From contig JAFRLH010000048.1 in NCBI GenBank assembly GCA_017431345.1, positions 17,402-81,401 of the forward strand: DNA of 64,000 nt, written 5' to 3'. Under the pieces are notes generated by a model, which was not told where the DNA came from, searched no databases, and saw only the letters and a list, made by a program, of their open reading frames with translations. This stretch comes from Lachnospiraceae bacterium (GTDB taxonomy: Bacteria; Bacillota; Clostridia; Lachnospirales; Lachnospiraceae). The position numbers and the translations under genes are program-made. This document shows, one piece after another, positions 20,613 through 34,702 of this stretch (positions are counted from its first letter, which is position 1; the number at the start of each line of letters is the position of its first letter).

Positions 20613-23540
20613 TCAGAACGGTCTCTCTGCGTCCGGATCGTCCAGGGATACATAGAATCCCTCGTTCTTGTTGAACGGTACGGGGTTCGCCTTGATGTCT
20701 TCCAGACGCTCGTACATATCCGGTCCGAGATAGTACTTCTTCGGCTCGTAAGGCTTTTCACCGCGTGCGATCGCGTCCATACCGGCTTTGATCTTCGCGG
20801 GCGTTGCGGGCTGCTCATGGACACGGACGCCGGTCGCGTTATAGATCGCGTTCAGCACCGCGCAGTGAGGAGAAGCCTGGAATGCTTCCGAAGCGCCCGA
20901 GCTTCCGAACGGGCCGGACTCGATCGTGTCATCCATGTGGATGATCGTGATGTTGTCAGGCGTATCCTTGATATAAGGAACGCCGGCGCCAAGCATGTTC
21001 GCGTTCTTCTTTACATCATCGTAATCCTCGGTCAGGGCAAATCCGATACCGTGGGACACACCTGAATATGCCTGGCCGTTGACAGCCTGGATGTTTCCTA
21101 CACGGCCTACATGATCCACACAGGTGAATCCGATGCAGGTCGCCTTGCCGGTCTTCGCGTCTACTTCGACTTCCGCCAGGTTCAGGCAGTAGGTATAAGC
21201 CGGTGAAGGATCGCCGATACCGGTGTTGGGATCGGGCCTTACAAGGTCGGGATCGATGGAATTCTCATGTCTTCCGATATACTTGGTCGGGATGCCCTCA
21301 TCCACCATCTCCTGATAGGTACGGTATGTGCCGTCTTCCTTCTTCATCGCTGCAAGCAGCTTTTCGCCGGCGATCTTTGTTGCAAGTCCGCTCATATAGA
21401 AGGAACGGGAGGCGCCTGCCATGCCGGAATCCGGGCAGAGCTTGGTATCGTTCTGCACAAGCTGGATATCCTCGGGCGTAAGGTGCAGCGGCTTTAATGC
21501 TTCCAGGGTTACCATGACAGAACCGACAGATCCTCCCTGTCCCATTGCATGCCAGGTATCATATTTCCAGATCTTTCCGTCTTCCTTCAGCTCGATCGCC
21601 ACTTCGGACGCATCCGCTTCGCCTTCGGTGACATTGAATCCGCCCCATGCGATACCCACGCCGCGGAGCTTTTCGGGAGTAGACTCAGCCTTCGCTCTGG
21701 CTTTCGCCTCCTCATAGATCGGGCGCATGGTATCCATCATGGCTTCCATCGGATACTGCTTGAACGCATAGCTGTTGATATTTGTATCTCCCGGACGGGC
21801 GATATTCTTATATCTGAAATCGAAAGGATCCATTCCGAGCTCTTCCGCCATCATATCCATCAGCGGCTCGGACAGCGTATAAGCCTGCGGCGAACCATAG
21901 GAGCGGTAAGCAGTACCGAATGCATGGTTTACGTTGGCTACGCGGACAAGGCCTGCCACATTGGGAACATTGTAAGGCCAGAATGTGAAGCGGGCGGGCT
22001 TGGTCATGACATCGTCACCGCCCCAGGAATAGGCGCCGTGATCCAGGCCTACATCGAACTCGGCAGCAATGATGCGGCCGTCTTCATCGCAGGCAAGGCG
22101 TCCGTTCGAATAGGACGGGCATCTCTTGCCGGAGAAGTGCTGATGCTCTTCGTAGGACATCGACAGGGATACAGGCTCACCGGTGATGATCGTCGCAGCA
22201 AATGCAAGGGCGATATCGCCTGCATTGGTGGACCATCCGAAGCTGGCGCCGGTCGGGTTCATGATGATGCGGTATTTGTCGCGCGGCACCCCGAAGCAGT
22301 TGGAGCCGATACGGCCGATCGAGGAATAGGTGCACTGGGACTTGCACTGTGCAGTAAGCATACCGTCGTCGCCCCAGTAAGTCTGGCAGACGCAGCCTTC
22401 GATCGAAAGGTGCGGTTCACGGGTGGAATGGAAGCTTCCCTCTACCACATGAGGAGCATTGTCGATCAGCTCGCGGACATTTTCCGGATCCTCAAGGCCT
22501 GCGCCCTTCATGACAGGCTGTTCCGCGAAAATATTGTCTGTATCTTCATGGATGCGCATTGCGTCGGGCATGGCTGCATCCAGATAGCTGGTGTATTCAG
22601 GCAGCTTTTCAAGGTCGACAGTGACCTTCGCGGCGGCAGCACGGGCTTCTTTATTGGTGCGGGCTACAACAACAGCCACGACATCGCCGTAACGGAAGAT
22701 CTTCTCATCCTGCAGCACTTTACGGGAAGGCTTCAGGACAGTGCTTCTCTCATGGAAATTGCCCTCTGCCATCAGGTTCGTTCCGCCGATCGCATAGATG
22801 TCCTTCGCGGTAATCACTTTTACGACGCCGGGCATCTTCTCGGCTTCTTCGGTATGGATGCCGAGGATTTTCGCGTGATGGGCAGCTCTCGGCTGTACAA
22901 CGGCAGCGAACAGGGTTCCTTCCGGCATCTTCATAGCCTGGTCATCGCCGTAATCGGTAAGGCCGGTGACTTTGCCCAGGGCATCGGGACGTACGATACC
23001 GGTTCCGTAATATTCTCCGTCTTCCGGTGTCTTGTACATGATATCCTCGATGGCGCACTCACCGCGCATGACCTTCGCAGCGGCCATGACAGCATCAACG
23101 ATCTGCTTGTATCCGGTGCAGCGGCAGACGTTCCTGGTCTTCTGGAACCAGTCACGGACCTGCTCACGGGTGGGATCAGGATTCTCCTGCAGCAGCTGGT
23201 AAGCGGAAACGATGAATCCGGGCACGCAGAAACCGCACTGTACGGCGCCGCAGTGCATCCATGCGACCTGCAGGGGATGCAGATGCTGAGGGGTGCCGAT
23301 GCCTTCGATCGTGGTGATCTTCGCATATTCGGGAACGGCCGTGATCTTCCTGGTGCAGGAACGGATCACCTTTCCGTCAAGAATAACGGAGCAGGAACCG
23401 CAGACGCCGGTGCCGCAGCCGACCTTTACGCCGGTAAGGCCGAGTCTTCTCAGTACGTCAGAGAGCTTGTCGTTCTCGGGATCGCACATGAAAACACGGT
23501 CGACGCCGTTGATGTTCAGGAACATTTTCCTAAGAATCAT
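20613..23540 (-). CDS. mop: MOP-type molybdenum aldehyde oxidoreductase (copy 2)
   Basis: A 975-residue paralog of 6020-8941. It has [2Fe-2S] ligands at the same positions (Cys42, 47, 50, 62 and 102, 105, 139, 141), no FAD domain, molybdopterin-binding domains and the catalytic Glu at about 885 in GSSGASEAF. The two copies differ along their whole length and at the C-terminal tail, which suggests different substrates or expression. The ATG at 23540 follows AGGAGG. It heads the second locus (flavoprotein, small redox protein, radical SAM) and has a 498-bp upstream region, consistent with its own promoter. Confidence 0.95.
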   Translation of the reverse strand: MILRKMFLNINGVDRVFMCDPENDKLSDVLRRLGLTGVKVGCGTGVCGSCSVILDGKVIRSCTRKITAVPEYAKITTIEGIGTPQHLHPLQVAWMHCGAVQCGFCVPGFIVSAYQLLQENPDPTREQVRDWFQKTRNVCRCTGYKQIVDAVMAAAKVMRGECAIEDIMYKTPEDGEYYGTGIVRPDALGKVTGLTDYGDDQAMKMPEGTLFAAVVQPRAAHHAKILGIHTEEAEKMPGVVKVITAKDIYAIGGTNLMAEGNFHERSTVLKPSRKVLQDEKIFRYGDVVAVVVARTNKEARAAAAKVTVDLEKLPEYTSYLDAAMPDAMRIHEDTDNIFAEQPVMKGAGLEDPENVRELIDNAPHVVEGSFHSTREPHLSIEGCVCQTYWGDDGMLTAQCKSQCTYSSIGRIGSNCFGVPRDKYRIIMNPTGASFGWSTNAGDIALAFAATIITGEPVSLSMSYEEHQHFSGKRCPSYSNGRLACDEDGRIIAAEFDVGLDHGAYSWGGDDVMTKPARFTFWPYNVPNVAGLVRVANVNHAFGTAYRSYGSPQAYTLSEPLMDMMAEELGMDPFDFRYKNIARPGDTNINSYAFKQYPMEAMMDTMRPIYEEAKARAKAESTPEKLRGVGIAWGGFNVTEGEADASEVAIELKEDGKIWKYDTWHAMGQGGSVGSVMVTLEALKPLHLTPEDIQLVQNDTKLCPDSGMAGASRSFYMSGLATKIAGEKLLAAMKKEDGTYRTYQEMVDEGIPTKYIGRHENSIDPDLVRPDPNTGIGDPSPAYTYCLNLAEVEVDAKTGKATCIGFTCVDHVGRVGNIQAVNGQAYSGVSHGIGFALTEDYDDVKKNANMLGAGVPYIKDTPDNITIIHMDDTIESGPFGSSGASEAFQASPHCAVLNAIYNATGVRVHEQPATPAKIKAGMDAIARGEKPYEPKKYYLGPDMYERLEDIKANPVPFNKNEGFYVSLDDPDAERPF

Positions 23541-23729
23541 GAGAGTATCCTCCTTGTGAATTAGATTTCATCTTAAATTGATTATTTTTCAGTCCTGCCG
23601 CCCAAAAATTCACTATATATGAATCAACTGCAATGGACATCCGGCAGCCTTCAGGTTGATTTACCTATTACAAAATACAGGAAACCTATCGGAAAGTCAA
23701 TGATTTATCATAAATTTATCCATGTTTTT

Positions 23730-23753
23730 CGTTATTTATTTTTTAAAATAACG
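23730..23753. promoter_or_regulatory. Candidate operator palindrome upstream of mop2
   Basis: CGTTATTT (23730-23737) and AAATAACG (23746-23753) are exact complements with 8 AT-only bases between them, about 190 bp upstream of the mop2 start. A looser arrangement of similar words lies just upstream of mop1 (8968-8997). A binding protein is not identified. Confidence 0.35.
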
Positions 23754-23920
23754 TGAAATTTATGCAGCAATTTTTATTTTATATTCATTTTAATATATTT
23801 ATATTTCATTATTTCGAATTTACTGATTCTTTCTTATAATATAAGCGGAATTTTTCGCTGTGTTTCACCCTTTCATGTCATGTCATTATCTTATGGCGGC
23901 GCATTCTCCGCAGAAGCAGA

Positions 23921-23958
23921 AAACAGGCATTCCGGATAAAATCCGGCCATGCCTGTTT
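23921..23958 (-). terminator. Terminator of the ferredoxin/AOR/ThiS operon
   Basis: A long hairpin with 10-bp outer arms 23921-23930 and 23949-23958 and an inner CCGGAT/ATCCGG stem, followed on the minus strand by TTTTC. It lies 80 nt after the ThiS-like stop and could also work from the other side. Confidence 0.75.
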
Positions 23959-24038
23959 CCGTTATTTACTATTCCATTTTAAAACCGTGAATTCCGCATT
24001 GTTTCAGGTGAAATACTGCCGATCCGTTCCGGAAGCGT

Positions 24039-24236
24039 TCAGCCGCCGCCCAGCAGATGGATCACTTCCAGATCATCCGATGCCGCAAGCTTCGTGTCAG
24101 CATACTCTTCCGGCCATACGACCTTCTTATTGAGTTTCACAACAAGCTTCGGCCAGGTAAACTGGTTCTCTTCGATCACATCTTTCACTGACATGCCCTC
24201 GCGGAAGTTCTTATACTCCCGGTGATTCAGCATCAT
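24039..24236 (-). CDS. ThiS/MoaD-like ubiquitin-fold sulfur carrier protein
   Basis: A 65-residue protein ending in LLGGG, the C-terminal glycine tail that ThiF/MoeB enzymes adenylate and thiocarboxylate. The GMSVKDVIEE segment and the middle strand VVKLNKKVV fit the ThiS/MoaD fold. The ATG at 24236 follows AAGGAAGG, 17 nt after the aldehyde ferredoxin oxidoreductase stop. Its place here suggests sulfur donation to the pterin cofactor of that enzyme; the MoeB/ThiF-like protein at 35753 is its natural partner. It could instead serve thiamine synthesis, but no thi gene is nearby. Confidence 0.85.
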   Translation of the reverse strand: MMLNHREYKNFREGMSVKDVIEENQFTWPKLVVKLNKKVVWPEEYADTKLAASDDLEVIHLLGGG

Positions 24237-24253
24237 AGTATCACCTTCCTTAA

Positions 24254-26464
24254 TTACTGCAGCGGTTCCACGATCTCCAGAAGCTCAGGCAGATCCATTC
24301 CCAGCTCCTTCAGGTGCGCGATGGTCGGAACGCCGTTCAGTGTCCATCCGCGCTTGGGATAAACTGCATCGATCAGCGTCTGATACTGATCCTCGCGGTA
24401 CTTTCTGGTCGCTGCCATTCTTTCCTGCAGGGACATGCTCTTTACCTGCTCTTCGGTATAGCCGGCCAGCTCCACGAGCTGCGTATCATAACGCTCTTCT
24501 CTCCAGAGATATTCATCTTCAAACACCGGACCGGCGCTGCGGTACGGGATCGCATCGTTCGCTCTGAGGCCCTTGCCCATGCGGATATTGAAGATACGCT
24601 GGAAATTGTAGACTCTCTCGGACTGCCTGATCATGCCGGGGATGTCCAGCTTGTTTCCGGTAACACCATAATACAGATTCAGATAATTTTCAACATGTTC
24701 GGGGACCATCTTGGGATCGTCTGTCAGCGCGTTGTCCGCCGGGACGACATCGTTCCAGGGCAGCTTGCAGAGACCCATCAGTCCGAACCATGTACGGAAC
24801 ATCGGATAGAAGTACAGCGCTTCCGCCTTGTCTTCGAACGTAGGGATCTGGTTGTTCACCTGATCCATGAAGATCAGCCAGGCTTCGTCATGCTGCGGTC
24901 CCTTGTTCGTCAGACCATAGCCGCCCTGCTGTGCAAGAGATTCCTTCGCGGAATACTCGGAATACTCCAGGCCTTTCTGCTCCATGCTGAAATCATTCAT
25001 CTCCTGCAGATCGCCCCAGCCCATCTGTGCGAAGTATTCTTTCTGCTTGTGGCTTCCGAGCGCAGCGATCTTTCCGAAGCCTTCATTTCTCGCCATCTGA
25101 TGCATCATCTCAAGATCGGCTTCCGCGTTGCCCCAGGTCAGCTCCAGGCCGCCCGTTCTTTCCTTATTCAGGATGCCGCGCTCATAGCACTCCATCAGGA
25201 AGGCTGTCATGGTGCCGTAGGAGATCGTATCCAGGCCGTAGGTGTCACAGTAGAAGTTGATCTCCAGGACTGCCTGCGGATCATAGATGCCGCAGTTCGG
25301 GCCGAGACCGGCAGCGCTCTCATACTCGGGGCCGTCCACGCAGACACGCTGTCCCTTATAAGGACCGGTCTTCAGCAGGAAATGATCGGACGCCTTCGCG
25401 CAGGCCATGGAGCAGCCGTACCAGCAGCCGTCCGCCGCACCCTGGGTAAGCCAGTCGCGTTTGAATACGGCAGCCGTCATCTCATCGATGCCGGGCGCAT
25501 CCCCGAACTTGTAGTTGTTTGTGGGAACGATATCATAATCAGCCAGCGTGCGGAGCGAATAGGCTGTACCAACGCCTCTCATATCATTCTGCTTGGCATC
25601 ATTGTTCGCGATCTCGCGGTGGAACCGGAGACCGGTCTTGTTGACCACGCCGATATCATAGCAGTTGTTCAGATTTCCCTTTACACCGCTGATCTTGCAG
25701 ACGAGGGCCTTGATCTTCTTGTTCCTGAATACTCTTCCGATGCCTCCGCGGCCGGCCTGTTTCAGCCTGGTCACACCACGGCGGGGATCGTAGAACGAGA
25801 AGTTCAGCATGCCGAGGTTCGAGTGATCTGCGGCGGAACCGGCTGCGGCAACGGCAATGTTCTTCTTGTCGTTCTCATCATCCGCGTAAAGCGAAGTCAG
25901 CTCTTCGCAGAGGATATGCGCATCAAAATGCTCCAGCGGGGCTTCTTCAAAGGAAATGGTACCCTTTGTCGCATCGATCACAACGATAACATCCTTCTCT
26001 GATTTTCCCTTGATCTCCAGCGCATCGAATCCGGCGAACTTCAGATACGGTCCGAAGAAGCCGCCGACATTGGAATCGATCGGGATATCCGTCATGGGAG
26101 AAATGGTGCAGATCAGGGTCTTCCCGGTGCCGCCGTACTGGGTAATGCCGGCGATCGGTCCTGCAGACATGACGATTTCATTCTCGGGAGAATCCCATCT
26201 GGTGGAAGGATTGACGGCGTCCCACAGATAGCGCAGGCAGTAGCCTTTACCGCCGATGAACTTCTCTTTTACTTCCGCGGGAATATCCGCGATCCTGGCA
26301 GATTTCTCTCCGACATCGATCGTCAGAATCTTATCGGTGTATCCGCGATACAGTTCTTTTTTCTTATAATCAAAGGAGCTGAGCGTCACATGACTCCTGC
26401 GCAGTTCCTCAAGTTCCTCTGCGGAAGGCGCCTGATAGCGCGGTACATTGCAAATATGGATCAT
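24254..26464 (-). CDS. Tungsten-type aldehyde ferredoxin oxidoreductase
   Basis: A 736-residue enzyme of the aldehyde ferredoxin oxidoreductase family. The N-terminal domain (about 40-250) has the pterin-binding segments GGKGYCLRYL and SNVGGFFGP. A cysteine group Cys347, Cys351, Cys355 (C-x3-C-x3-C), together with a later Cys in GLCKL, fits the 4Fe-4S site, and CDTYGLDTIS is present. It should oxidise an aldehyde and reduce ferredoxin; related subfamilies act on other acids or aromatic substrates. The ATG at 26464 follows AGGAGG; the longer frame to 26548 only re-reads the ferredoxin gene. Upstream is its probable electron carrier, downstream a ThiS-like protein, and nearby a tungstate transporter, which supports tungsten as the metal. 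Confidence 0.93.
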   Translation of the reverse strand: MIHICNVPRYQAPSAEELEELRRSHVTLSSFDYKKKELYRGYTDKILTIDVGEKSARIADIPAEVKEKFIGGKGYCLRYLWDAVNPSTRWDSPENEIVMSAGPIAGITQYGGTGKTLICTISPMTDIPIDSNVGGFFGPYLKFAGFDALEIKGKSEKDVIVVIDATKGTISFEEAPLEHFDAHILCEELTSLYADDENDKKNIAVAAAGSAADHSNLGMLNFSFYDPRRGVTRLKQAGRGGIGRVFRNKKIKALVCKISGVKGNLNNCYDIGVVNKTGLRFHREIANNDAKQNDMRGVGTAYSLRTLADYDIVPTNNYKFGDAPGIDEMTAAVFKRDWLTQGAADGCWYGCSMACAKASDHFLLKTGPYKGQRVCVDGPEYESAAGLGPNCGIYDPQAVLEINFYCDTYGLDTISYGTMTAFLMECYERGILNKERTGGLELTWGNAEADLEMMHQMARNEGFGKIAALGSHKQKEYFAQMGWGDLQEMNDFSMEQKGLEYSEYSAKESLAQQGGYGLTNKGPQHDEAWLIFMDQVNNQIPTFEDKAEALYFYPMFRTWFGLMGLCKLPWNDVVPADNALTDDPKMVPEHVENYLNLYYGVTGNKLDIPGMIRQSERVYNFQRIFNIRMGKGLRANDAIPYRSAGPVFEDEYLWREERYDTQLVELAGYTEEQVKSMSLQERMAATRKYREDQYQTLIDAVYPKRGWTLNGVPTIAHLKELGMDLPELLEIVEPLQ

Positions 26465-26481
26465 AGCTGTTCTCCTCCTTC

Positions 26482-26880
26482 TCAGTCTTCCACCAGGGAC
26501 AGTGCGCCGGTGGGGCAAATCTTTACGCAGATGCCGCAGGCGATGCATTTGCTCGGTTCCTGACGGGCATCATCCTGTACCATGACCTGCTCCGGACAGA
26601 ATCCGACGCACATCAGACATCCGACACACTCTTTTTTCCGGATCATATAGACACCCTTCGCATTCGGCTGAATGACGCAGGTATTGCAGACCTCAGAACA
26701 TTTTCCGCACTGATTGCAGATATGGATCGCAGCCTTATACTCTCCGCTCTCATCCCAGCCGTCTTCCACTCTGAGACATGCATAAGCGGGATCTTCCTTC
26801 TTGTAATAGGCCTTTGCACAGGCAAGCTCACACTGATGGCAGCCCACGCACAAGGCTTCGTTTTTCTCGAGGCGTTTCAT
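26482..26880 (-). CDS. Polyferredoxin subunit for the aldehyde ferredoxin oxidoreductase
   Basis: A 132-residue protein with four ferredoxin-type cysteine sets: CVGCHQCELAC at 11-21, CNQCGKCSEVC, CVGCLMCVGFC and CIACGICVKIC. It can hold four 4Fe-4S clusters. It resembles the electron-transfer subunit found with multi-subunit aldehyde oxidoreductases. The ATG at 26880 follows AAGGAGGG; the stop is 17 nt before the AOR start, so the two are co-expressed. Confidence 0.92.
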   Translation of the reverse strand: MKRLEKNEALCVGCHQCELACAKAYYKKEDPAYACLRVEDGWDESGEYKAAIHICNQCGKCSEVCNTCVIQPNAKGVYMIRKKECVGCLMCVGFCPEQVMVQDDARQEPSKCIACGICVKICPTGALSLVED

Positions 26881-26924
26881 GATTCCCTCCTTACAGACAA
26901 GGTATTATTTCATATAATATAATA

Positions 26925-26938
26925 GTCTGTTTCCAGAC
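26925..26938. promoter_or_regulatory. Candidate operator upstream of the ferredoxin/AOR operon
   Basis: GTCTG (26925-26929) and CAGAC (26934-26938) form an inverted repeat, with a further CAGAC at 26894-26898. They flank an AT-rich stretch that probably contains the operon promoter. A tungstate or molybdate sensor is one possible ligand; this is inference from context only. Confidence 0.3.
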
Positions 26939-27030
26939 AGATGAAGTATAGCAGATTACGGCATAAGCAAGCAGTTCATACACGAAACTTCTTATTCCAA
27001 TATCGCATAAGAGCACTGCAAATAAAGCAC

Positions 27031-27059
27031 AAAAAAAGAGCGCTGACCAATCGGTCAGC
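27031..27059 (-). terminator. Rho-independent terminator after tupC
   Basis: A 7-bp stem (27042-27048 with 27053-27059) and 4-nt loop, followed on the minus strand by GCTC and a run of seven T. The stem overlaps the tupC stop codon at 27055. Confidence 0.85.
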
Positions 27060-27711
27060 CCCCGTAAAAGTCCAGAAAATTTTTCAGTGCTCCGGTTTCG
27101 GGACTGGGAAGACGCGCGCTGCACGGTCCGTCTTCTGCAAGCGCTCCCTCTTTCAGGAACAGCAGCCTGTCCCCCATGCGCTCCGCCTGCTTAATGCTGT
27201 GCGTGATCAGCAGCACCGCAGCGCCTGTCTCCTTTTTATAATCGAGGATTGCTTTCTCGGCAAGCATGGTCGATTCCATGTCCATCGCCGCAGACGGTTC
27301 GTCCAGGATCAGAAGATCGAAAGGCTTCATCAATACTCTTGCCAGCGCCATGCGCGCCGACTCTCCGCCGGAGAGCTTGTCTGCTCCTGCTTTCCGGAGA
27401 TCCGTAAGCCTCAGCGCTGCAAGAAGCCTTTCCTCCCGTTCGCGGTCGTCTGCGGCGATCCGCAGATTCTTTTCCGTGCTCATCCGGAATGCATATGCCC
27501 GCTGCGGCAGATAGCCGACATGACAGGATTCCGCGAGCGGCGCTGTCTTTCCGTCCGCATCCAGCACACCGGCCAGGATCTTCGCCCATGTCGATTTACC
27601 GCTGCCGTTCGATCCGAGCATTACATGCACGGTATCTGTTTCAAAGACGATCTCCGGCATATTCAGGACAATGCGTCCTCCGTAGGTTTTTGAAACGGCA
27701 TTTGTTTTCAT
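27055..27711 (-). CDS. tupC: Tungstate ABC transporter ATP-binding protein
   Basis: A 218-residue ABC ATPase with Walker A (GSNGSGKST), the signature LSGGE, Walker B (LLILDEPS) and the switch His (LITHS). Assignment to tungstate uptake rests on the neighbouring tupB and tupA genes. The ATG at 27711 overlaps the tupB stop (ATGA); the frame remains open to 27858, but that part only re-reads tupB. It lacks the extra C-terminal regulatory domain of ModC proteins, as expected for TupC. Confidence 0.92.
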   Translation of the reverse strand: MKTNAVSKTYGGRIVLNMPEIVFETDTVHVMLGSNGSGKSTWAKILAGVLDADGKTAPLAESCHVGYLPQRAYAFRMSTEKNLRIAADDREREERLLAALRLTDLRKAGADKLSGGESARMALARVLMKPFDLLILDEPSAAMDMESTMLAEKAILDYKKETGAAVLLITHSIKQAERMGDRLLFLKEGALAEDGPCSARLPSPETGALKNFLDFYGG

Positions 27712-28394
27712 TCTGAGACCATCCTCTGCAGCACTGTGACCAGGATATTTACGATCAGCGACAAGGTCATCAGGATCAGCCCGAGTGCCACGCCGAGTGT
27801 GAAATTTCCGCGGTTGGTATACATCATGATCGCTGTAGTCATCACGTTGGTCTTCCACGCGATCGCGCCGCCGACCATGGAAATGGCGCCGACTTCAGCG
27901 ATCGCACGCGCAAAGGCAAGCAGGTATGTCGAACAGATGACATAGGCGCATTCATTCATCAGAAGCAGCAGCGTCTTCCCGGATGACAGCCCGAGCCCTT
28001 TTGCCGTCTCCCTGACCGGACCGGCTATCCCGGAGACAAAATTCTCCATGTTTCCGATCACGATCGGCGTGATTAGCACCACCTGCGCAAGGATCATGAG
28101 ATTGACCGTAAATAACAGCTTATAATGCCGGAACGGCCCGACGCCGGAGAACAGCATGTAAAAGAGCAGACCGCAGACGACCGGGGGCATCCCCATCAGC
28201 GTCCGGTTGATCACGATCAGAGGCGTTTTCCCGCGGAACACGGCTGCACCAAGGAGCAGTCCGAGCGGCACCCCGATCGCAAGCGCAATCAGAGAGCTTG
28301 ACAAACTCATCCTGGCTGTGACCAGAAGGATATTGATCAGCTCTCTGTCTCCGGAAAGGATCAGTTCTATCGCTTTGATGACCGCTGTACGCAC
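27708..28394 (-). CDS. tupB: Tungstate ABC transporter permease
   Basis: A 228-residue membrane protein with about five to six segments and the binding-protein-dependent permease loop (ECAYVICSTYLLAFARAIAEVGAI), which holds the EAA-type motif. I chose the GTG at 28394, with GGGAG upstream; a longer frame from an ATG at 28469 has no ribosome binding site and reads into a repeat. It is coupled to tupC by an ATGA overlap. The gap to tupA (228 bp) contains a dispersed repeat. Confidence 0.9.
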   Translation of the reverse strand: MRTAVIKAIELILSGDRELINILLVTARMSLSSSLIALAIGVPLGLLLGAAVFRGKTPLIVINRTLMGMPPVVCGLLFYMLFSGVGPFRHYKLLFTVNLMILAQVVLITPIVIGNMENFVSGIAGPVRETAKGLGLSSGKTLLLLMNECAYVICSTYLLAFARAIAEVGAISMVGGAIAWKTNVMTTAIMMYTNRGNFTLGVALGLILMTLSLIVNILVTVLQRMVSE

Positions 28395-28462
28395 GCTGTA
28401 TGCTCCCTGCACATAGTTTTTCTGCAAAAAGCAGATGCTCCGACAGCATTTACCAATATTAT

Positions 28463-28580
28463 TTGTCATTCTGAGGACAGCCTGCTGTCCGAAGAATCCA
28501 CCGCTTTACAGTATCGGTTTTTGTAAAACCGCCTGTTTCAGGGCGAAGATCCTTCGTCGCATCACTCCTCCGGATGACAA
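28463..28580. repeat. Dispersed GTCAT-ended repeat, copy 1
   Basis: A 118-bp element between tupA and tupB with imperfect 14-bp terminal inverted repeats (12 of 14 pairs), starting TTGTCAT and ending ATGACAA. Its right half closely matches the inverted form of the element at 43895-43945, and it shares the GATCCTTCG core with 34726-34780. No coding content. Confidence 0.7.
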
Positions 28581-28622
28581 CGGTGTGTACAATGCTGCCG
28601 GAACTGTCTGTTGATTATTTAA

Positions 28623-29741
28623 TTACTCGATGACACCCTTATTGTTGTAGAATGTCAGATAGGTCGCCTTATCCGTAAGGATGTAAGCATGCATCTCTTC
28701 CGCCATGACAAGGCAGGCGCCCATACCGGCGTTCGCAGATACATACCAGTCTGTATAATCGGCAAAGGATTCCGCTTCTTCGGTGATGCCAAGCTCTTCC
28801 GGCCACAGGGAGAGTTCCTTGGTATGGGTACCGGAACCGTCTCCGCGGGATACGAACTGGAACTTGCCGTCGGCGATCGCTTTAAAGGCATCCGCAGCTG
28901 TCTCGCAGTCAGCGACTTTTGCAGGATCCTCGGAAGGTCCGCACAGGACGAAATAGTTATAAAGGAAGCTTACTCTTTCCGCCTCAAAGCCTTCCACAAT
29001 GCGGGCAAAGCCTTTTTCCACGAATTCTTCTTCCTTGGCTTTTGCATGCACCAAGATCAGATCCGCATTGCCGCTTTCTGCAGCCGCGATGGCTTTTCCT
29101 GTTCCGGCAGACTGGACTTCTACCGTGTAGCCGTACTTCTCTTCAAATACGGGAAGAAGGGTTCCGAGCAGGCCGGAGTCATTTACGGAAGTCGTAGTGG
29201 AAAGACGGATGACTTTGTTCTCCTCGGTCGCAGGCGCGATCTCGCACTCATGGATGGGAGCCTCATCAAGCACGTAGAACAGGCTGTCGCCGTATTCTTC
29301 CTGGCCGAAAGCTGCCGCCATGTCAATGGCCTCCTGTGTAAGCAGCCAGTGGATCAGGGCATCCGCGCCTTCGGTATTCACGGCAACATCTTCTACGGGC
29401 GTGCCGTTCTCGTCAGCGAAAGGAGCCTCGGGATTGACAGCAATAACAGTATAGGTGTTCTTCATGCTGTCGTCCGCTTCCTTAAGAATGGTAAGGTCTA
29501 CGGGGTTCTCTGTTTCTGCAGCCGCTTCTGTCTCGGCAGCTTCGGTTTCGGCGGCTTCCGTTTCGGGAGCCTCTGTTTCTGCTGCGGCTTCTGTCTCAGG
29601 TGCTTCGGTCTCGGCCGGCGCTTCCGTTACGGCCTCTGTCTCCGCAGCGGCAGTGGTCTCTGCGGGCTGGCTCTGTCCGCATGCGGTAAGCATGCCGAAC
29701 GCCATCAGCGCCGCAAGGAGCAATGCGATCGTTCTTTTCAT
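28623..29741 (-). CDS. tupA: Tungstate-binding lipoprotein TupA, apparently circularly permuted
   Basis: A 372-residue lipoprotein: signal peptide with lipobox LTAC (Cys21), a Glu/Thr/Ala-rich linker to about 78, then a segment (about 82-155) with NTYTVIAVNPE and EYGDSLF, which in ordinary TupA proteins is the C-terminal end. Only then comes the usual TupA start (RLSTTTS and DSGLLGTLLP at 179-197, GTGKA at 213-217, LVHAKAKEE at 230-238). The protein ends at LTDKATYL plus about ten residues, where normal TupA continues into VIAVNP. All ligand loops seem present, so it is probably functional. The ATG at 29741 follows GGAGG; a promoter is at 29822-29850. It delivers tungstate to TupBC for the nearby AOR. 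Confidence 0.9.
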   Translation of the reverse strand: MKRTIALLLAALMAFGMLTACGQSQPAETTAAAETEAVTEAPAETEAPETEAAAETEAPETEAAETEAAETEAAAETENPVDLTILKEADDSMKNTYTVIAVNPEAPFADENGTPVEDVAVNTEGADALIHWLLTQEAIDMAAAFGQEEYGDSLFYVLDEAPIHECEIAPATEENKVIRLSTTTSVNDSGLLGTLLPVFEEKYGYTVEVQSAGTGKAIAAAESGNADLILVHAKAKEEEFVEKGFARIVEGFEAERVSFLYNYFVLCGPSEDPAKVADCETAADAFKAIADGKFQFVSRGDGSGTHTKELSLWPEELGITEEAESFADYTDWYVSANAGMGACLVMAEEMHAYILTDKATYLTFYNNKGVIE

Positions 29742-30125
29742 AATGTGCCTCCTGTTTTCGGTTTCCCATATTTTTCGGTTCCTCTGCCTGTTTTCAGAGA
29801 AACCGGAGATTACAGTAGTGAATTATAGCAATCAGCATATACTTATTCAACCGTTATTTCATATAATTTATACTTTATATTACAATTGCGAAAGAATGAC
29901 CGTGCAATATTGCGTTGGATTGTGATATGATTTATGATAATAGTGACAAAATAGTGCATGCGGCATCGTCCTTTTCGTTTCTGTTCGGCGGAATCTGCAC
30001 TGTTCCGTTATTCTGATCCGGAATAATTCATCTTTTTCCCGAACGTACGCAGATTCAAAATTATGCTATTATGAATTTCCGAAAAGGAATACAAAATCAA
30101 CCTGTTGTTCCGGGAGGGAACTTTC
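29742..30125. other. Divergent regulatory region between tupA and moeA
   Basis: 384 bp with no gene. It contains the tupA promoter (29822-29850, minus) and, toward moeA, AT-rich sequence with possible -10 boxes (for example TATTAT near 30064). I see no clear molybdenum-cofactor riboswitch by eye. Confidence 0.5.
29822..29850 (-). promoter_or_regulatory. Sigma-70-type promoter for tupA
   Basis: On the minus strand, TTGAAT (29850-29845) and a perfect TATAAT (29827-29822) are separated by 17 bp, about 80 nt upstream of the tupA start. Confidence 0.75.
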
Positions 30126-31346
30126 ATGTTTACCGTAAAGACACCTGAAGAAACATTTTCTGTCATAGAAGCCGAATTCAGACCGTTCCTGCCGGCAGAA
30201 ACGGTTTCGCTATCCGAGTGCTGCGGCCGCATTCTCGCGGAAGATATCCTTTCCTCCGAATATGTGCCGGGCTTTACGCGGTCAACGGTCGACGGATATG
30301 CCGTAAAAGCTTCCGATACATTCGGATGCTCGGATTCGATCCCCGCGCTCCTCACTCTCTCCGGCGAGATCCTGATGGGGGAAGAAGCTTCCGTACCTCT
30401 GACGCCGGGCTGCTGCTTCGCAGTCCCGACCGGCGGCGCAGTCCCGGAAGGGGCTGACGCTGTCGTCATGATCGAATACACAGAAAATTACGGAGACGGC
30501 ATGATCGGTATTGAAAAGCCGGCTTCTCCCGGGATGAACATGATCTATAAAGGCGACGATCTTGTCCCGGGAAAAACCGTGCTCCCCGCCGGCCGCCGGA
30601 TCACGGTTTCCGATATCGGCGCACTGGCTTCCCTCGGGATCACACGGATTCCGGTTCGCAGACGGCTCCTGGCCGGCATCATTTCTACCGGAGACGAGCT
30701 TGTGCCGGTCGAAGAGACGCCGGAAGGCGGACAGATCCGGGATGTCAACACGCATATGCTCGATGCGCTGTGCCGCGAAATGGGTATGGATACCCGCCTG
30801 TACGGGATCGTAAACGATCAGGCCGAACTGCTCTCTGCCGTTCTGGAGAAAGCAATTGCCGAATGCGATCTGGTGCTCATCTCCGGCGGCAGTTCCGTCG
30901 GTGCCAGAGATGCCGCCTCTGCGGTGATCGAAAAACACGGCAGCATCCTCTTCCACGGGATCGCCATGAAACCCGGCAAGCCGACCATTCTCGGAAAAGC
31001 CGGAAACAAGCCGGTCTTCGGGCTTCCAGGACATCCTGTAGCCGCCTTTTTCATCACCAAACTCTATGTACGGCACGCCGCAGCGGTGCTGACCGGTGCA
31101 GACTATGCTGTCCGCACGACGCCTGCCATTCTGACGGAAGCGCTCAGCACGAATCACGGGCGAAGCGAAACACTCGGCGTAAGGCTTTCCGAACAGGACG
31201 GGAAGCTGTATGCGGCTCCTGTACATACCAAATCCGGACTGATCTCAGCACTGGCCGGGACCGATGGATACATCACCATCTCGCGGGACTGTGAAGGACT
31301 TCCCGCCGGCGCTGCAGTAAATGTTTCTTTCTATTCTGTCAACTGA
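30126..31346 (+). CDS. moeA: Molybdopterin molybdotransferase MoeA
   Basis: A 406-residue MoeA with the domain III molybdopterin-binding core (LISGGSSVGARD) and the N-terminal motif PGFTRSTVDGYAV. It inserts molybdate or tungstate into adenylylated molybdopterin. The ATG at 30126 follows GGGAGGG; the in-frame TTG at 30105 is rejected. First gene of a five-gene plus-strand operon. A second, longer MoeA-like gene follows after 30 bp, so the two may prefer different metals or cofactor forms. Confidence 0.94.
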   Translation: MFTVKTPEETFSVIEAEFRPFLPAETVSLSECCGRILAEDILSSEYVPGFTRSTVDGYAVKASDTFGCSDSIPALLTLSGEILMGEEASVPLTPGCCFAVPTGGAVPEGADAVVMIEYTENYGDGMIGIEKPASPGMNMIYKGDDLVPGKTVLPAGRRITVSDIGALASLGITRIPVRRRLLAGIISTGDELVPVEETPEGGQIRDVNTHMLDALCREMGMDTRLYGIVNDQAELLSAVLEKAIAECDLVLISGGSSVGARDAASAVIEKHGSILFHGIAMKPGKPTILGKAGNKPVFGLPGHPVAAFFITKLYVRHAAAVLTGADYAVRTTPAILTEALSTNHGRSETLGVRLSEQDGKLYAAPVHTKSGLISALAGTDGYITISRDCEGLPAGAAVNVSFYSVN

Positions 31347-31376
31347 TCTGATTAAACGATTGCAAGGAGGCCTGCT

Positions 31377-33287
31377 ATGGCATTTCAATATCTTACAAAT
31401 GTACCGCTTGATGAAGCGCGTGAAGCTTATAAGGAAGCACTGCTGACAGAGGGATTCGGCGCCGGAACAGAGACCGTTCCCGTGACAGGATCCTGCGGAA
31501 GGATCACATCGGAACCCGTCTATGCCGCGATCTGCGCACCGCACTATCCCGCGAGCGCAATGGACGGCATCGCCCTGAAAGCCGGGCTCACATTCGGTGC
31601 CGGCGAGACCACGCCCGCAACACTCACGTCCGACCAGTTCATCGTCGTCGATACCGGAGACCCGGTCCCGGAAGGATGTGATGCCGTCGTCATGATCGAA
31701 GATGTGATCAGACAGGAGGACGGCACCGTACGGCTTTACGCGCCCGCGGCTCCCTGGCAGCATATCCGGCAGATCGGGGAGGATATCTGCGCGGGCGAAA
31801 TGATCCTGCCTTCCTATACGGAGATTTCACCTGCCGCGATCGGTTCGATGATTGCCGGAGGTGTGACCGAGGTATCCGTTCTGGAAAAACCTGTTGTCGG
31901 AATCATACCCACCGGAGATGAGATCGTGCCGCCCACGCCCGATCCCGCGCCCGGAGATATCCTCGAATTCAATTCCTCCATTTTTTCCGGCATGCTGGAT
32001 GGCTGGAAGGCGGTTCCACGCACCTATCCCATCGTAAAGGACAATAAGGAAGCGATCCGGGAAGCCCTTCAGAACGCGCTTGCAGAATGCGATATCGTAC
32101 TTCTGAACGCCGGCTCCTCCGCCGGTAGGGAGGATTATTCCACAGAGGTGATCGCATCCCTCGGCACAGTCCTCTTTCACGGCATTGCCATCAAGCCCGG
32201 AAAGCCTGCGATCCTCGCCGCATGCAGCCGGAAGCCCGTGATCGGCGTCCCCGGCTATCCCGTATCGGGAATCATCGTTCTTGAACAGTTCCTGAAGCCG
32301 CTGATCGACTGCTGGTACCATACTGCACCGGCCCCGCAGGAAACATGCACCGCCGTTCTTTCAAAAAATGTCGTATCCGGCCTGAAATACCGCGAATACG
32401 TCCGCGTCCGCATGGGCGAAGTCGGCGGAAAGATCATGGCGTCCCCGCTCGGGCGCGGAAGCGGCGTGGTCTCCTCCTTCATGAAAGCAGACGGGATCAT
32501 GGAGATTCCCCAGGGTGTCGAAGGATACGAAGCCGGAAGCGAAATCACAGTGAGACTTCTGAAAAAGCGCGAAGAACTCTCCCGCACACTGGTCGCCATC
32601 GGCAGCCACGATCCGCTGCTGGACGAGATCTCCGACCTTCTGCATGCATCCGATCCGTCGCTGCATATGAGTTCAACACATGTCGGCTCGATGGGCGGCA
32701 TCATGGCCGTAAAGCGCGGAGAAACGCATATTGCAGGCGTGCATCTCCTGAATGAAAGCGACGGCGTTTACAACACTGCCTATATAAAGAGATATTTCCC
32801 GAAGGGCGGCGTACGGCTGGTAGAGTGCGTCGGCAGGAAGCAGGGACTGATGCTGCAGGCCGGAAATCCGAAGAATATAAAGGGAATAGGCGATCTGACA
32901 CAGCCGGACGTTCGTTATGTCAACCGTCAGAAGGGTTCCGGTACCCGGATCCTGATCGATTATCTGTGCAAAAAAGAGGGCATAGAGACCGGCAGGATCT
33001 ACGGATATGACCGTGAGGAGTTCACGCATACCTCTGTCGCGGCGCAGATCGCATCCGGTACGGCTGATGCGGGCATGGGGATCTTCTCTGCCGCGAAGCT
33101 GTACGATCTGGATTTCCTCCCGGTCTGCATGGAACAGTATGACCTGCTGATCCCGGACGAAGCATGGGATACGGATCTGGTAAAGAAGCTTCTGGAGATT
33201 CTGAAAAGCGATGTCTTCCGGAAACGTCTGGAAGCATTGGGCGGCTATGAACTCAATCATCCGGGGGAAGTAAGGGAGCATTTCTGA
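31377..33287 (+). CDS. moeA: MoeA-like protein fused to a periplasmic-binding-protein-like domain
   Basis: A 636-residue fusion. Residues 1 to about 395 are MoeA-like (SAMDGIAL, IPTGDEIV, LNAGSSAGREDYS, FHGIAIKPGKP). The remaining 240 residues form a PBP-like domain (VRYVNRQKGSGTRILIDYL, then TADAGMGIFSAA) of the type fused to MoeA or to molybdate-responsive regulators. Such a domain may sense or deliver an oxyanion or pterin ligand. Within the MoeA half SAMDG replaces the more usual STVDG. The ATG follows AAGGAGG; the stop overlaps the next start by one base. Confidence 0.92.
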   Translation: MAFQYLTNVPLDEAREAYKEALLTEGFGAGTETVPVTGSCGRITSEPVYAAICAPHYPASAMDGIALKAGLTFGAGETTPATLTSDQFIVVDTGDPVPEGCDAVVMIEDVIRQEDGTVRLYAPAAPWQHIRQIGEDICAGEMILPSYTEISPAAIGSMIAGGVTEVSVLEKPVVGIIPTGDEIVPPTPDPAPGDILEFNSSIFSGMLDGWKAVPRTYPIVKDNKEAIREALQNALAECDIVLLNAGSSAGREDYSTEVIASLGTVLFHGIAIKPGKPAILAACSRKPVIGVPGYPVSGIIVLEQFLKPLIDCWYHTAPAPQETCTAVLSKNVVSGLKYREYVRVRMGEVGGKIMASPLGRGSGVVSSFMKADGIMEIPQGVEGYEAGSEITVRLLKKREELSRTLVAIGSHDPLLDEISDLLHASDPSLHMSSTHVGSMGGIMAVKRGETHIAGVHLLNESDGVYNTAYIKRYFPKGGVRLVECVGRKQGLMLQAGNPKNIKGIGDLTQPDVRYVNRQKGSGTRILIDYLCKKEGIETGRIYGYDREEFTHTSVAAQIASGTADAGMGIFSAAKLYDLDFLPVCMEQYDLLIPDEAWDTDLVKKLLEILKSDVFRKRLEALGGYELNHPGEVREHF

Positions 33288-34702
33288 TGAAGAAATACGA
33301 TGTGATCATCATCGGCGCCGGTGTCCTCGGATGTTTCCTGGCGCGTTCCTTAAGGCGTTACCGGCTCTCCGTTCTTGTGCTGGAAAAGGCAGACGACGTC
33401 TGCACCGGGATCTCCCGCGGCGGCAGCGGGATCATTTACGCCGGCTATGACATGAAGCCGGGCACCAGGAAAGCGCGGATGACGACCGATGCCTGCATCC
33501 GGTTCCCGGAACTGTGCCGGACGCTCGGCGTAAAATACAGGAATCCCGGCTCGCTGATCGTCAGCTTCGGAGAGAACGCTGACAGATCACTCAGGGATAA
33601 GCTTGAACGCGGGATGGAAAACGGCGTGCCGGGACTGCGGCTGCTGGACCGTGCGGAAACGCTGGCCATGGAGCCGCTGCTGTCAGAGAATGTATCGAGC
33701 GCGCTTTATGCACCCGGTACATGCACGGTCGATCCCTGGGAACTCGGCATTGCAGCTTACGAAAACGCAGTATCCAACGGCGCCCGGTTTGTTTTTGAGC
33801 AGGCGGCCGATTCCATTGTACGTAGACCGGACGGTTTTTCCGTAACTGCCGCCGGCAATGAATACGCTTGCCGCATACTGGTCAACTGTGCCGGTACCGC
33901 TGCAGGTGATGTGCATGAATTGATATCCGAACCATCTGTCCGTATCCGGAAAGCAGCGGCTGACTATATCGTGCTCGAAGACAACGTTTCTCCTGCCGTA
34001 TCCCATGTCCTGTTCCATGAAACAGAGGACGGCAGCAAAGGGCTCACACTCATTCCTACCGCCCACGGAAATATGATGATCGGCCAGACAGAACGCGAAA
34101 CGGACGCGCCCGGAGATCCGACTGACCAGACAGGTCTCTCCCGTCTTCGGGAACTTTGCAGAGAGGTCGTTCCGGGGCTTCCTGCGGATAAGATCATGCG
34201 GACATTTGCCATTAATCGTCCGAATCCGTACAGTGTAAAACGTTCCGGCGGCGAATGGGTTCCGGCCGGAAAGGGCCATTTCGATTTTTCGATCCTGGAG
34301 GAAGACGGCTTTTTCAGCCTGATCGGTGTGAAAACGCCGGGTCTGACCTGCAGCAATGAGCTGGCAGAGGATCTGACAGACAGGATCCTGGCGTTTCTCG
34401 GAGACGTGACGGCGAATCCGGCATATGATCCGGTCAGAAAACGGCCCATAGTTGTGAGCGAGCTGAGTGCAGAGGAGCGGGACGAAGTGATCAAGCGGGA
34501 TCCCGCTTACGGCAGGATCGTGTGTACCTGCAGGGATATCTCGGAAGGGGAAATCCGCGACGCCGTAAAGCGCGGCGCCCGCACGCTGAAAGGCATTAAA
34601 TACCGTACCGGTGCCATGATGGGAAACTGCCAGGGCAGCCGGTGTATGCAGCAATTGTTAAATGAGCAAAGTATCCTGTTTCAGGCACAGTCTGGTTCCT
34701 GA
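33287..34702 (+). CDS. FAD-dependent oxidoreductase with C-terminal BFD-type [2Fe-2S] domain
   Basis: A 471-residue protein of the glycerol-3-phosphate dehydrogenase/DAO type: FAD motif IIGAGVLG near the N-terminus, a DAO body, and a C-terminal BFD-like [2Fe-2S] site with Cys413, Cys415, Cys448 and Cys453. It starts by a one-base overlap with the previous gene. Usually such proteins pair with the FAD/NAD oxidoreductase type encoded next (34832). The substrate is unknown; its place among cofactor genes suggests it serves a Mo/W enzyme or an electron-recycling step, which is inference. Confidence 0.88.
   Translation: MKKYDVIIIGAGVLGCFLARSLRRYRLSVLVLEKADDVCTGISRGGSGIIYAGYDMKPGTRKARMTTDACIRFPELCRTLGVKYRNPGSLIVSFGENADRSLRDKLERGMENGVPGLRLLDRAETLAMEPLLSENVSSALYAPGTCTVDPWELGIAAYENAVSNGARFVFEQAADSIVRRPDGFSVTAAGNEYACRILVNCAGTAAGDVHELISEPSVRIRKAAADYIVLEDNVSPAVSHVLFHETEDGSKGLTLIPTAHGNMMIGQTERETDAPGDPTDQTGLSRLRELCREVVPGLPADKIMRTFAINRPNPYSVKRSGGEWVPAGKGHFDFSILEEDGFFSLIGVKTPGLTCSNELAEDLTDRILAFLGDVTANPAYDPVRKRPIVVSELSAEERDEVIKRDPAYGRIVCTCRDISEGEIRDAVKRGARTLKGIKYRTGAMMGNCQGSRCMQQLLNEQSILFQAQSGS

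Follow-up and report, generated by a model that had tools for sequence, protein, structure and literature searches.

TupA is the extracellular capture protein of the tungstate importer TupABC, and its defining property is binding of tungstate with picomolar to nanomolar affinity. Canonical members include those of Desulfovibrio alaskensis (5my5), Geobacter sulfurreducens (3lr1), Vibrio parahaemolyticus (3muq) and Wolinella succinogenes (3kn3). In the D. alaskensis protein, as given in the report of its structure, lobe A is formed by residues 2-76 and 201-251, a central strand by 77-89 and lobe B by 91-200, and the ligand residues are T9-11, S12, H59, R118, T124 and D170 (PMC5517513). A natural circular permutation in the binding lipoprotein of an ATP-binding cassette (ABC) importer has been described for Tp0684 (TpMglB-2) of Treponema pallidum, a glucose-binding protein that its authors labelled Type Ic; they also report the same topology in Gram-positive bacteria (PMC4990184). 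In the literature that we searched, with coverage mainly outside subscription journals and no bioRxiv preprints, we found no other clear natural permuted binding protein and no permuted TupA, and natural circular permutation of transporter binding proteins seems rare in print. Here we analyse a TupA-like lipoprotein encoded in a 64,000-nucleotide stretch of a Lachnospiraceae bacterium genome (assembly GCA_017431345.1, contig JAFRLH010000048.1; hereafter the window, to which all coordinates refer). We put at roughly 94% the probability that TupA was circularly permuted in these bacteria, most simply by a single event in an ancestor inside the class sampled here, and that the product is still the capture protein of a TupABC importer.

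TupA segments in reversed order

The gene, an open reading frame (ORF) at 28623..29741 on the minus strand, encodes 372 amino acids and was recognized as tupA by matches to profiles and to the sequences of solved structures. Residues 1-78 (29508..29741), read from the sequence, comprise a signal peptide with a lipobox cysteine (...MLTAC) followed by a low-complexity acidic tether. The next part, residues 79-155 (29277..29507), corresponds to the C-terminal end of an ordinary TupA; within it, residues 81-105 read VDLTILKEADDSMKNTYTVIAVNPE and EYGDSLF occupies 149-155. A 22-residue bridge (156-177; 29211..29276), constant in length among the permuted proteins, connects the former C terminus with the former N terminus. 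It is followed by the ordinary N-terminal part of TupA (178-372; 28626..29210), which the alignments equate with the first half of lobe A with its TTTS motif, the central strand and most of lobe B. STTTS lies at 181-185 with DSGLL downstream, and the chain ends in LTDKATYL plus the ten residues TFYNNKGVIE. The original prediction, made from the letters of the DNA, had placed the closing segment (NTYTVIAVNPE and EYGDSLF) ahead of STTTS/DSGLL and the stop ten residues after LTDKATYL, and the ORF bears out both.

The distance from the initiating methionine to the core varies widely, from 29 to 122 residues among relatives whose N termini were listed. In three of them (L066, L048 and L049) the N terminus has no clear lipobox, and that of L066 has no cysteine; some permuted TupAs may be secreted without a lipid anchor.

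Searches of solved structures with phmmer returned the protein in two pieces. Residues 177-366 aligned with positions 6-180 of 3lr1 (independent E-value, i-E, 1.5e-42), and residues 81-105 with positions 183-207, so that the pieces occur in reverse order; 3muq and 3kn3 gave the same reversed pair. The NCBIfam TupA model likewise matched residues 176-368 over profile positions 15-193 of 266, and the N-terminal piece on its own over positions 198-251 (E 2.7e-5). We then used a canonical profile of 246 positions made from 15 canonical TupAs, with the permuted and sister-group proteins kept out of the seeds. Along the window protein, this profile matched first at positions 171-239 (i-E 6.2e-11) and then at 2-174; the two pieces meet within a few residues, and almost nothing of the profile is left out. 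The N-terminal piece scored 43.4 bits, and the best shuffled copy 9.1 bits (1,515 of 2,000 shuffles returned a score).

All profile segments of TupA are therefore present. Because their order is not canonical, we class the protein as a permuted TupA variant rather than an ordinary member. It does not belong with the Type I sugar-binding proteins termed Type Ic or Cluster Bc, its matches being to TupA and PBP_like_2. At 146.9 bits it falls short of the 400-bit cut-off of the NCBIfam TupA model (NF041772), a threshold that does not discriminate here, because the five canonical TupAs tested all fail it too (206.9-273 bits). Given this cut-off, automatic naming may miss the TupAs of these bacteria.

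Exchange of the halves restores a continuous TupA match

Exchanging the two halves restored collinearity with unpermuted homologues, a criterion for a natural circular permutation. In the test set, from which contig-truncated proteins (for example L013 and L024) and duplicates were dropped, all 31 distinct complete permuted proteins matched the canonical profile as two pieces in their native order and as a single match after exchange. The single match spanned 236-242 profile positions (3-239 for the window protein), and the median best-piece score rose from 188.9 to 236.4 bits. Canonical proteins divided at the corresponding point showed the reverse in 56 of 56 cases, 15 of these being seeds of the profile itself; the other 22 of the 78 canonical proteins lack the motif that places the cut and were not rotated. 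Alignment to crystal-structure TupAs, first native and then exchanged, had been proposed with the original prediction, and the exchanged chain gave continuous matches to 3lr1 (7-207; 161.3 bits, against 153.3 native) and to 3muq (7-230). Coverage of the Pfam model PBP_like_2 went from 3-207 to 14-264 of 267 positions (112.4 to 119 bits), and that of the NCBIfam TupA model from 15-193 to 18-250 of 266 (146.9 to 156.5 bits). We did not find the arrangement that would speak for a separate N-terminal domain, with the usual C-terminal part elsewhere in the chain.

No additional TupA piece was detected outside the permuted gene in 28 permuted loci (8,468 six-frame fragments, i-E < 0.05), nor any TupA remnant in window positions 25000-33000 (240 fragments, i-E < 1). 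As no half is left over and the two pieces meet, the core appears, within the reach of the profile, to be complete and without repeats. The original prediction that nothing is missing or duplicated thus holds for the recognizable core segments, which seem to have been neither lost nor repeated, but needs amending for the protein as a whole, because the permuted family carries additional residues: the 22-residue bridge and three loop insertions.

The insertions were seen in a 12-protein alignment, in which they are present in five permuted and absent from seven canonical proteins (within 29211-29507 and 28626-29210 of the window gene). One, of about 11-13 residues, follows AVNPE (APFxDxDGNxVxDV), a second, of seven residues, precedes the central strand, and a third, of several residues, falls after the SGTH-LW stretch and ahead of the WY motif.

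One permuted group beside a canonical sister group

A search for other permuted TupAs, suggested alongside the original prediction, found the same order in 32 genome assemblies, counting distinct proteins over five genome scans, and this recurrence excludes an assembly fault. The scan of public genomes yielded 25 loci, of which 22 are permuted (L047-L068) and two canonical; one permuted gene (L051) is cut by a contig end, and the remaining locus (L069) holds its missing end. According to the record titles, from which all taxonomic and source labels are taken, six of the 25 loci come from gut, abomasum or faecal samples of goat, sheep, horse or water buffalo, and the families named include Lachnospiraceae and Oscillospiraceae. 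In overlapping samples that include the window's genome, permuted TupA was found in 7 of 61 genomes of near relatives and in 7 of 397 of the family, where 13 further genomes encode a canonical TupA and another 8 gave no more than weak partial matches. It was also found in 4 of 392 genomes of the order and 4 of 391 of the class; in the phylum sample, judged by each genome's best E-value, the window's genome was the one case in 398. Matches occurred in 116 plasmid records; none of these reached 80% coverage of the query at a single place, and hence none shows a full permuted match.

We built a tree of 110 proteins with the halves put in register, midpoint rooting, and contig-truncated proteins and duplicates dropped. 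The 31 permuted proteins form one group (support 100/99), which joins three canonical proteins, L025, L125 and L126 (support 96/91); the next group out is also canonical. A single change accounts for the order label on this tree, against a mean of 27.2 for shuffled labels. The sister proteins share (I/V)RLSTTTSVNDSGLL, YNYFV and KNTYS/T-(M/L/V)IAVN with the permuted proteins and are 54, 61 and 57% identical, respectively, to the larger part of the window protein; they have the ordinary order, no bridge and none of the three insertions. Since the solved proteobacterial TupAs are canonical, we take the permuted order to be the derived state, and since one permuted group adjoins a canonical sister group, a single origin is the simplest account.

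The smaller segment gives a compatible picture. In a FastTree analysis of its 62 columns, which carries a long-branch warning, the 31 permuted proteins grouped with the same eight canonical proteins as in the whole tree (support 85). The single best matches of the halves agreed only in part, with L126 best for 14 of 31 small segments and L125 for 13 of 31 large ones.

Position of the cut and predicted architecture

Alignment to 5my5 places the central strand at V257-P269 and one lobe crossing (Q200/Y201 of the D. alaskensis protein) at T96/Y97. On the lobe limits in the structural report, the cut corresponds to about residues 180-187 of D. alaskensis TupA, inside lobe B and ahead of its last segment; within the moved segment, residues from about 80 to 96 map to lobe B and residues 97-155 to lobe A. 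A cut inside lobe B means that a short piece of that lobe moves together with half of lobe A. We had considered that one of the two lobe crossings was lost and rejected this, as the T96/Y97 mapping shows that about 17 lobe-B residues move along. With these residues travelling on the moved piece, both crossings should be retained and only the chain ends relocated.

The fold is predicted to be preserved, with the old termini lying close to each other, and the lipid tether would now be joined to lobe B instead of lobe A. In such an architecture, the secreted lipoprotein would start with the last segment of lobe B, cross to lobe A, complete the C-terminal half of lobe A and reach the old N terminus by way of the 22-residue bridge of fixed length. 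It would then form the TTTS-bearing first half of lobe A, cross by the central strand to lobe B with R299, T305 and D357, and end in lobe B close to its own start. Tungstate would be held between the lobes and passed to TupB and TupC for use by tungsten enzymes, for example the neighbouring protein of the aldehyde:ferredoxin oxidoreductase (AOR) type.

Ligand residues, selection and gene neighbourhood

The ligand residues reported for D. alaskensis TupA map, in the 5my5 alignment, to T182-184, S185, H232, R299, T305 and D357 of the window protein. All eight lie in residues 178-372, none in the moved segment, and no variation was seen at these positions in the alignment of 22 permuted proteins. 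For R118, the counterpart of R299, replacement by Gln or Glu is reported to impair or abolish binding. The ratio of nonsynonymous to synonymous substitution rates (dN/dS, Nei-Gojobori) was 0.014-0.132 for residues 178-372; the moved segment gave 0.054-0.309 and the bridge 0.149-0.487. Each range comes from the nine of ten comparisons in which the ratio could be computed.

Downstream of the permuted tupA in the window are, in order, tupB-like, tupC-like, ferredoxin and AOR-type genes, all on the minus strand. The tupB-like permease gene (27708..28469) matches PF00528 and NF041773 (E 3.9e-40; 138.1 bits, below the cut-off of 320). The tupC-like ATPase gene (27055..27711) matches PF00005 and, below cut-off and not as its best NCBIfam match, NF041774 (E 9.9e-22); its likely start (MKTNAVSKTYGG) lies inside a longer ORF, 27055-27858, and overlaps the tupB stop. 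As in canonical operons, tupB and tupC thus stand alongside tupA, though their models match below the cut-offs. The ferredoxin gene (26482-26880) was assigned by Fer4 families and the AOR-type gene (24254-26548) by PF01314 and PF02730. Across the permuted loci L047-L069 and L146-L152, tupB directly follows in 27 of 30, and in L051 and L060 it is missing at contig ends; the tupC query of this survey started 14 residues past the likely tupC start. One genome (G389) carries a second permuted copy (L147:4505-5380) with neither tupB nor tupC matched within about 4.5 kb. The window's genome has three AOR-type genes, and the permuted gene is the only one in it that the TupA model finds.

Taken with the residues and neighbours described here, the permuted protein is predicted to bind tungstate, and its role is likely to be unchanged: extracellular tungstate capture and delivery to TupBC.

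On the other side of tupA, two MoeA-type cofactor genes identified by NCBIfam models run divergently on the plus strand (30105..33287), and genes of this type lie near tupA in many surveyed loci. The second MoeA-type protein (31377-33287) matches PRK14498 along nearly its whole length; PRK14498-type proteins have a C-terminal binding-protein-like domain. No RNA family, such as a cofactor riboswitch, was found upstream at gathering thresholds (window 23000-34000).

The bridge and the route of origin

The bridge, bounded by the LF of the moved segment and by [IV]R[LMI]STTTS, is exactly 22 residues long in all 33 distinct permuted proteins, two of which are incomplete at one end; L013 and L024 are part of this count. 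Its start resembles the old C-terminal tail of the sister proteins (YVLD versus FVIDNQK) and its end resembles their old N-terminal linker (EIAPATEENKVIRLS versus TEVATPENPVIRLS). Duplication and fission/fusion are the two main routes to circular permutation set out in PMC3320104. Likeness to both old tails is what a tandem duplication with later loss of the outer ends would be expected to leave; it extends over few residues, and we regard it as suggestive of this route.

In one sister genome (G1380), tupBC is followed by a second, diverged tupA (L144:7892-8644) that has lost several ligand residues: TTTS reads TTET and SGTH reads SEVY. This gene is possibly a diverged paralogue with another role.

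Alternative explanations

Several observations count against a permuted and functional TupA. The moved segment is short; the second phmmer pieces are weak when taken singly (i-E 660, 0.8 and 10 for 3lr1, 3muq and 3kn3), the segment alone against single solved sequences is weak as well (3muq, E 0.054), and searched alone in Pfam it has no match. Against single sequences and library models, exchange gains a modest 8 to 11 bits, the change being in coverage instead. Several of the dN/dS comparisons are close to saturation for synonymous changes, the L147 copy has no tupB or tupC match nearby, and no tandem-fused intermediate was seen among the loci examined, which leaves the duplication route resting on the bridge and its likeness to the old tails.

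The alternative that survives best is that the permuted protein no longer supplies TupBC with tungstate and has become a sensor or a binder of another oxyanion. The three insertions specific to permuted proteins and the L147 copy would suit such a change of role, but the invariant ligand residues, the adjoining tupB in most loci and the detection of a single TupA in a genome with three AOR-type genes make it improbable. We give still less credence to the idea that the N-terminal segment originated in another gene and became joined to a TupA truncated at its C terminus, its likeness to a TupA C terminus being coincidental or convergent. A foreign origin could account for the insertion in the moved segment that canonical relatives lack and for the missing Pfam match, and the canonical protein that matches best can differ between the two halves; the Tp0684 authors allowed for a different gene as source in their case (PMC4990184). 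Yet the moved segment matches the TupA profile far above its shuffled copies, the small-segment tree joins all 31 permuted proteins to the whole tree's eight canonical proteins, albeit on few columns and with the long-branch warning, and the sister proteins L126 and L125 are the best matches of 14 of 31 small and 13 of 31 large segments, respectively. That the arrangement reflects faulty assembly, a frame error or a pseudogene in decay, as the 94 contigs and estimated contamination of 5.14 of the window's genome might suggest, is hardly credible given the many separate assemblies with the same order, the listed full-length matches without an internal stop, the constant bridge, the low dN/dS and the lack of a remnant half.

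Circular permutation of TupA therefore remains our reading. The original prediction had called the protein naturally permuted rather than truncated or fused, and reversed order, the effect of exchange, the outgroup order, shared ancestry and the absence of a leftover half all agree with it.

Discussion

The permuted protein shares core segments, ligand residues and a tupB/tupC operon with canonical TupA and differs in segment order, in the bridge, in the loop insertions and, as predicted, in a tether that enters at lobe B. It resembles Tp0684 in being a naturally permuted binding lipoprotein of an ABC importer. Tp0684, however, is a Type I, cluster B sugar binder whose permutation adds a fourth lobe crossing, whereas the crossings of permuted TupA map unchanged; the two are presumably separate events. 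Models that depend on segment order see only part of permuted proteins, so that such proteins can look truncated.

TupA offers a clean case: the permuted proteins form one group, their canonical sister group is 54-61% identical over the larger part, the bridge is constant, and canonical TupA has an assayable ligand, a published structure and published affinities. Together, the permuted and canonical proteins can test for effects of chain order on folding, on closure of the lobes, on tethering and on docking. Whether the permutation was itself adaptive, by moving the tether from lobe A to lobe B, opening lobe B and placing a bridge of fixed length across lobe A, we consider doubtful. If it was, altered docking on TupB or altered lobe opening would give different uptake kinetics where gut tungsten is scarce, and the two forms of TupA would be a naturally occurring pair with which to ask if the connectivity of the chain is important in a Venus-flytrap protein.
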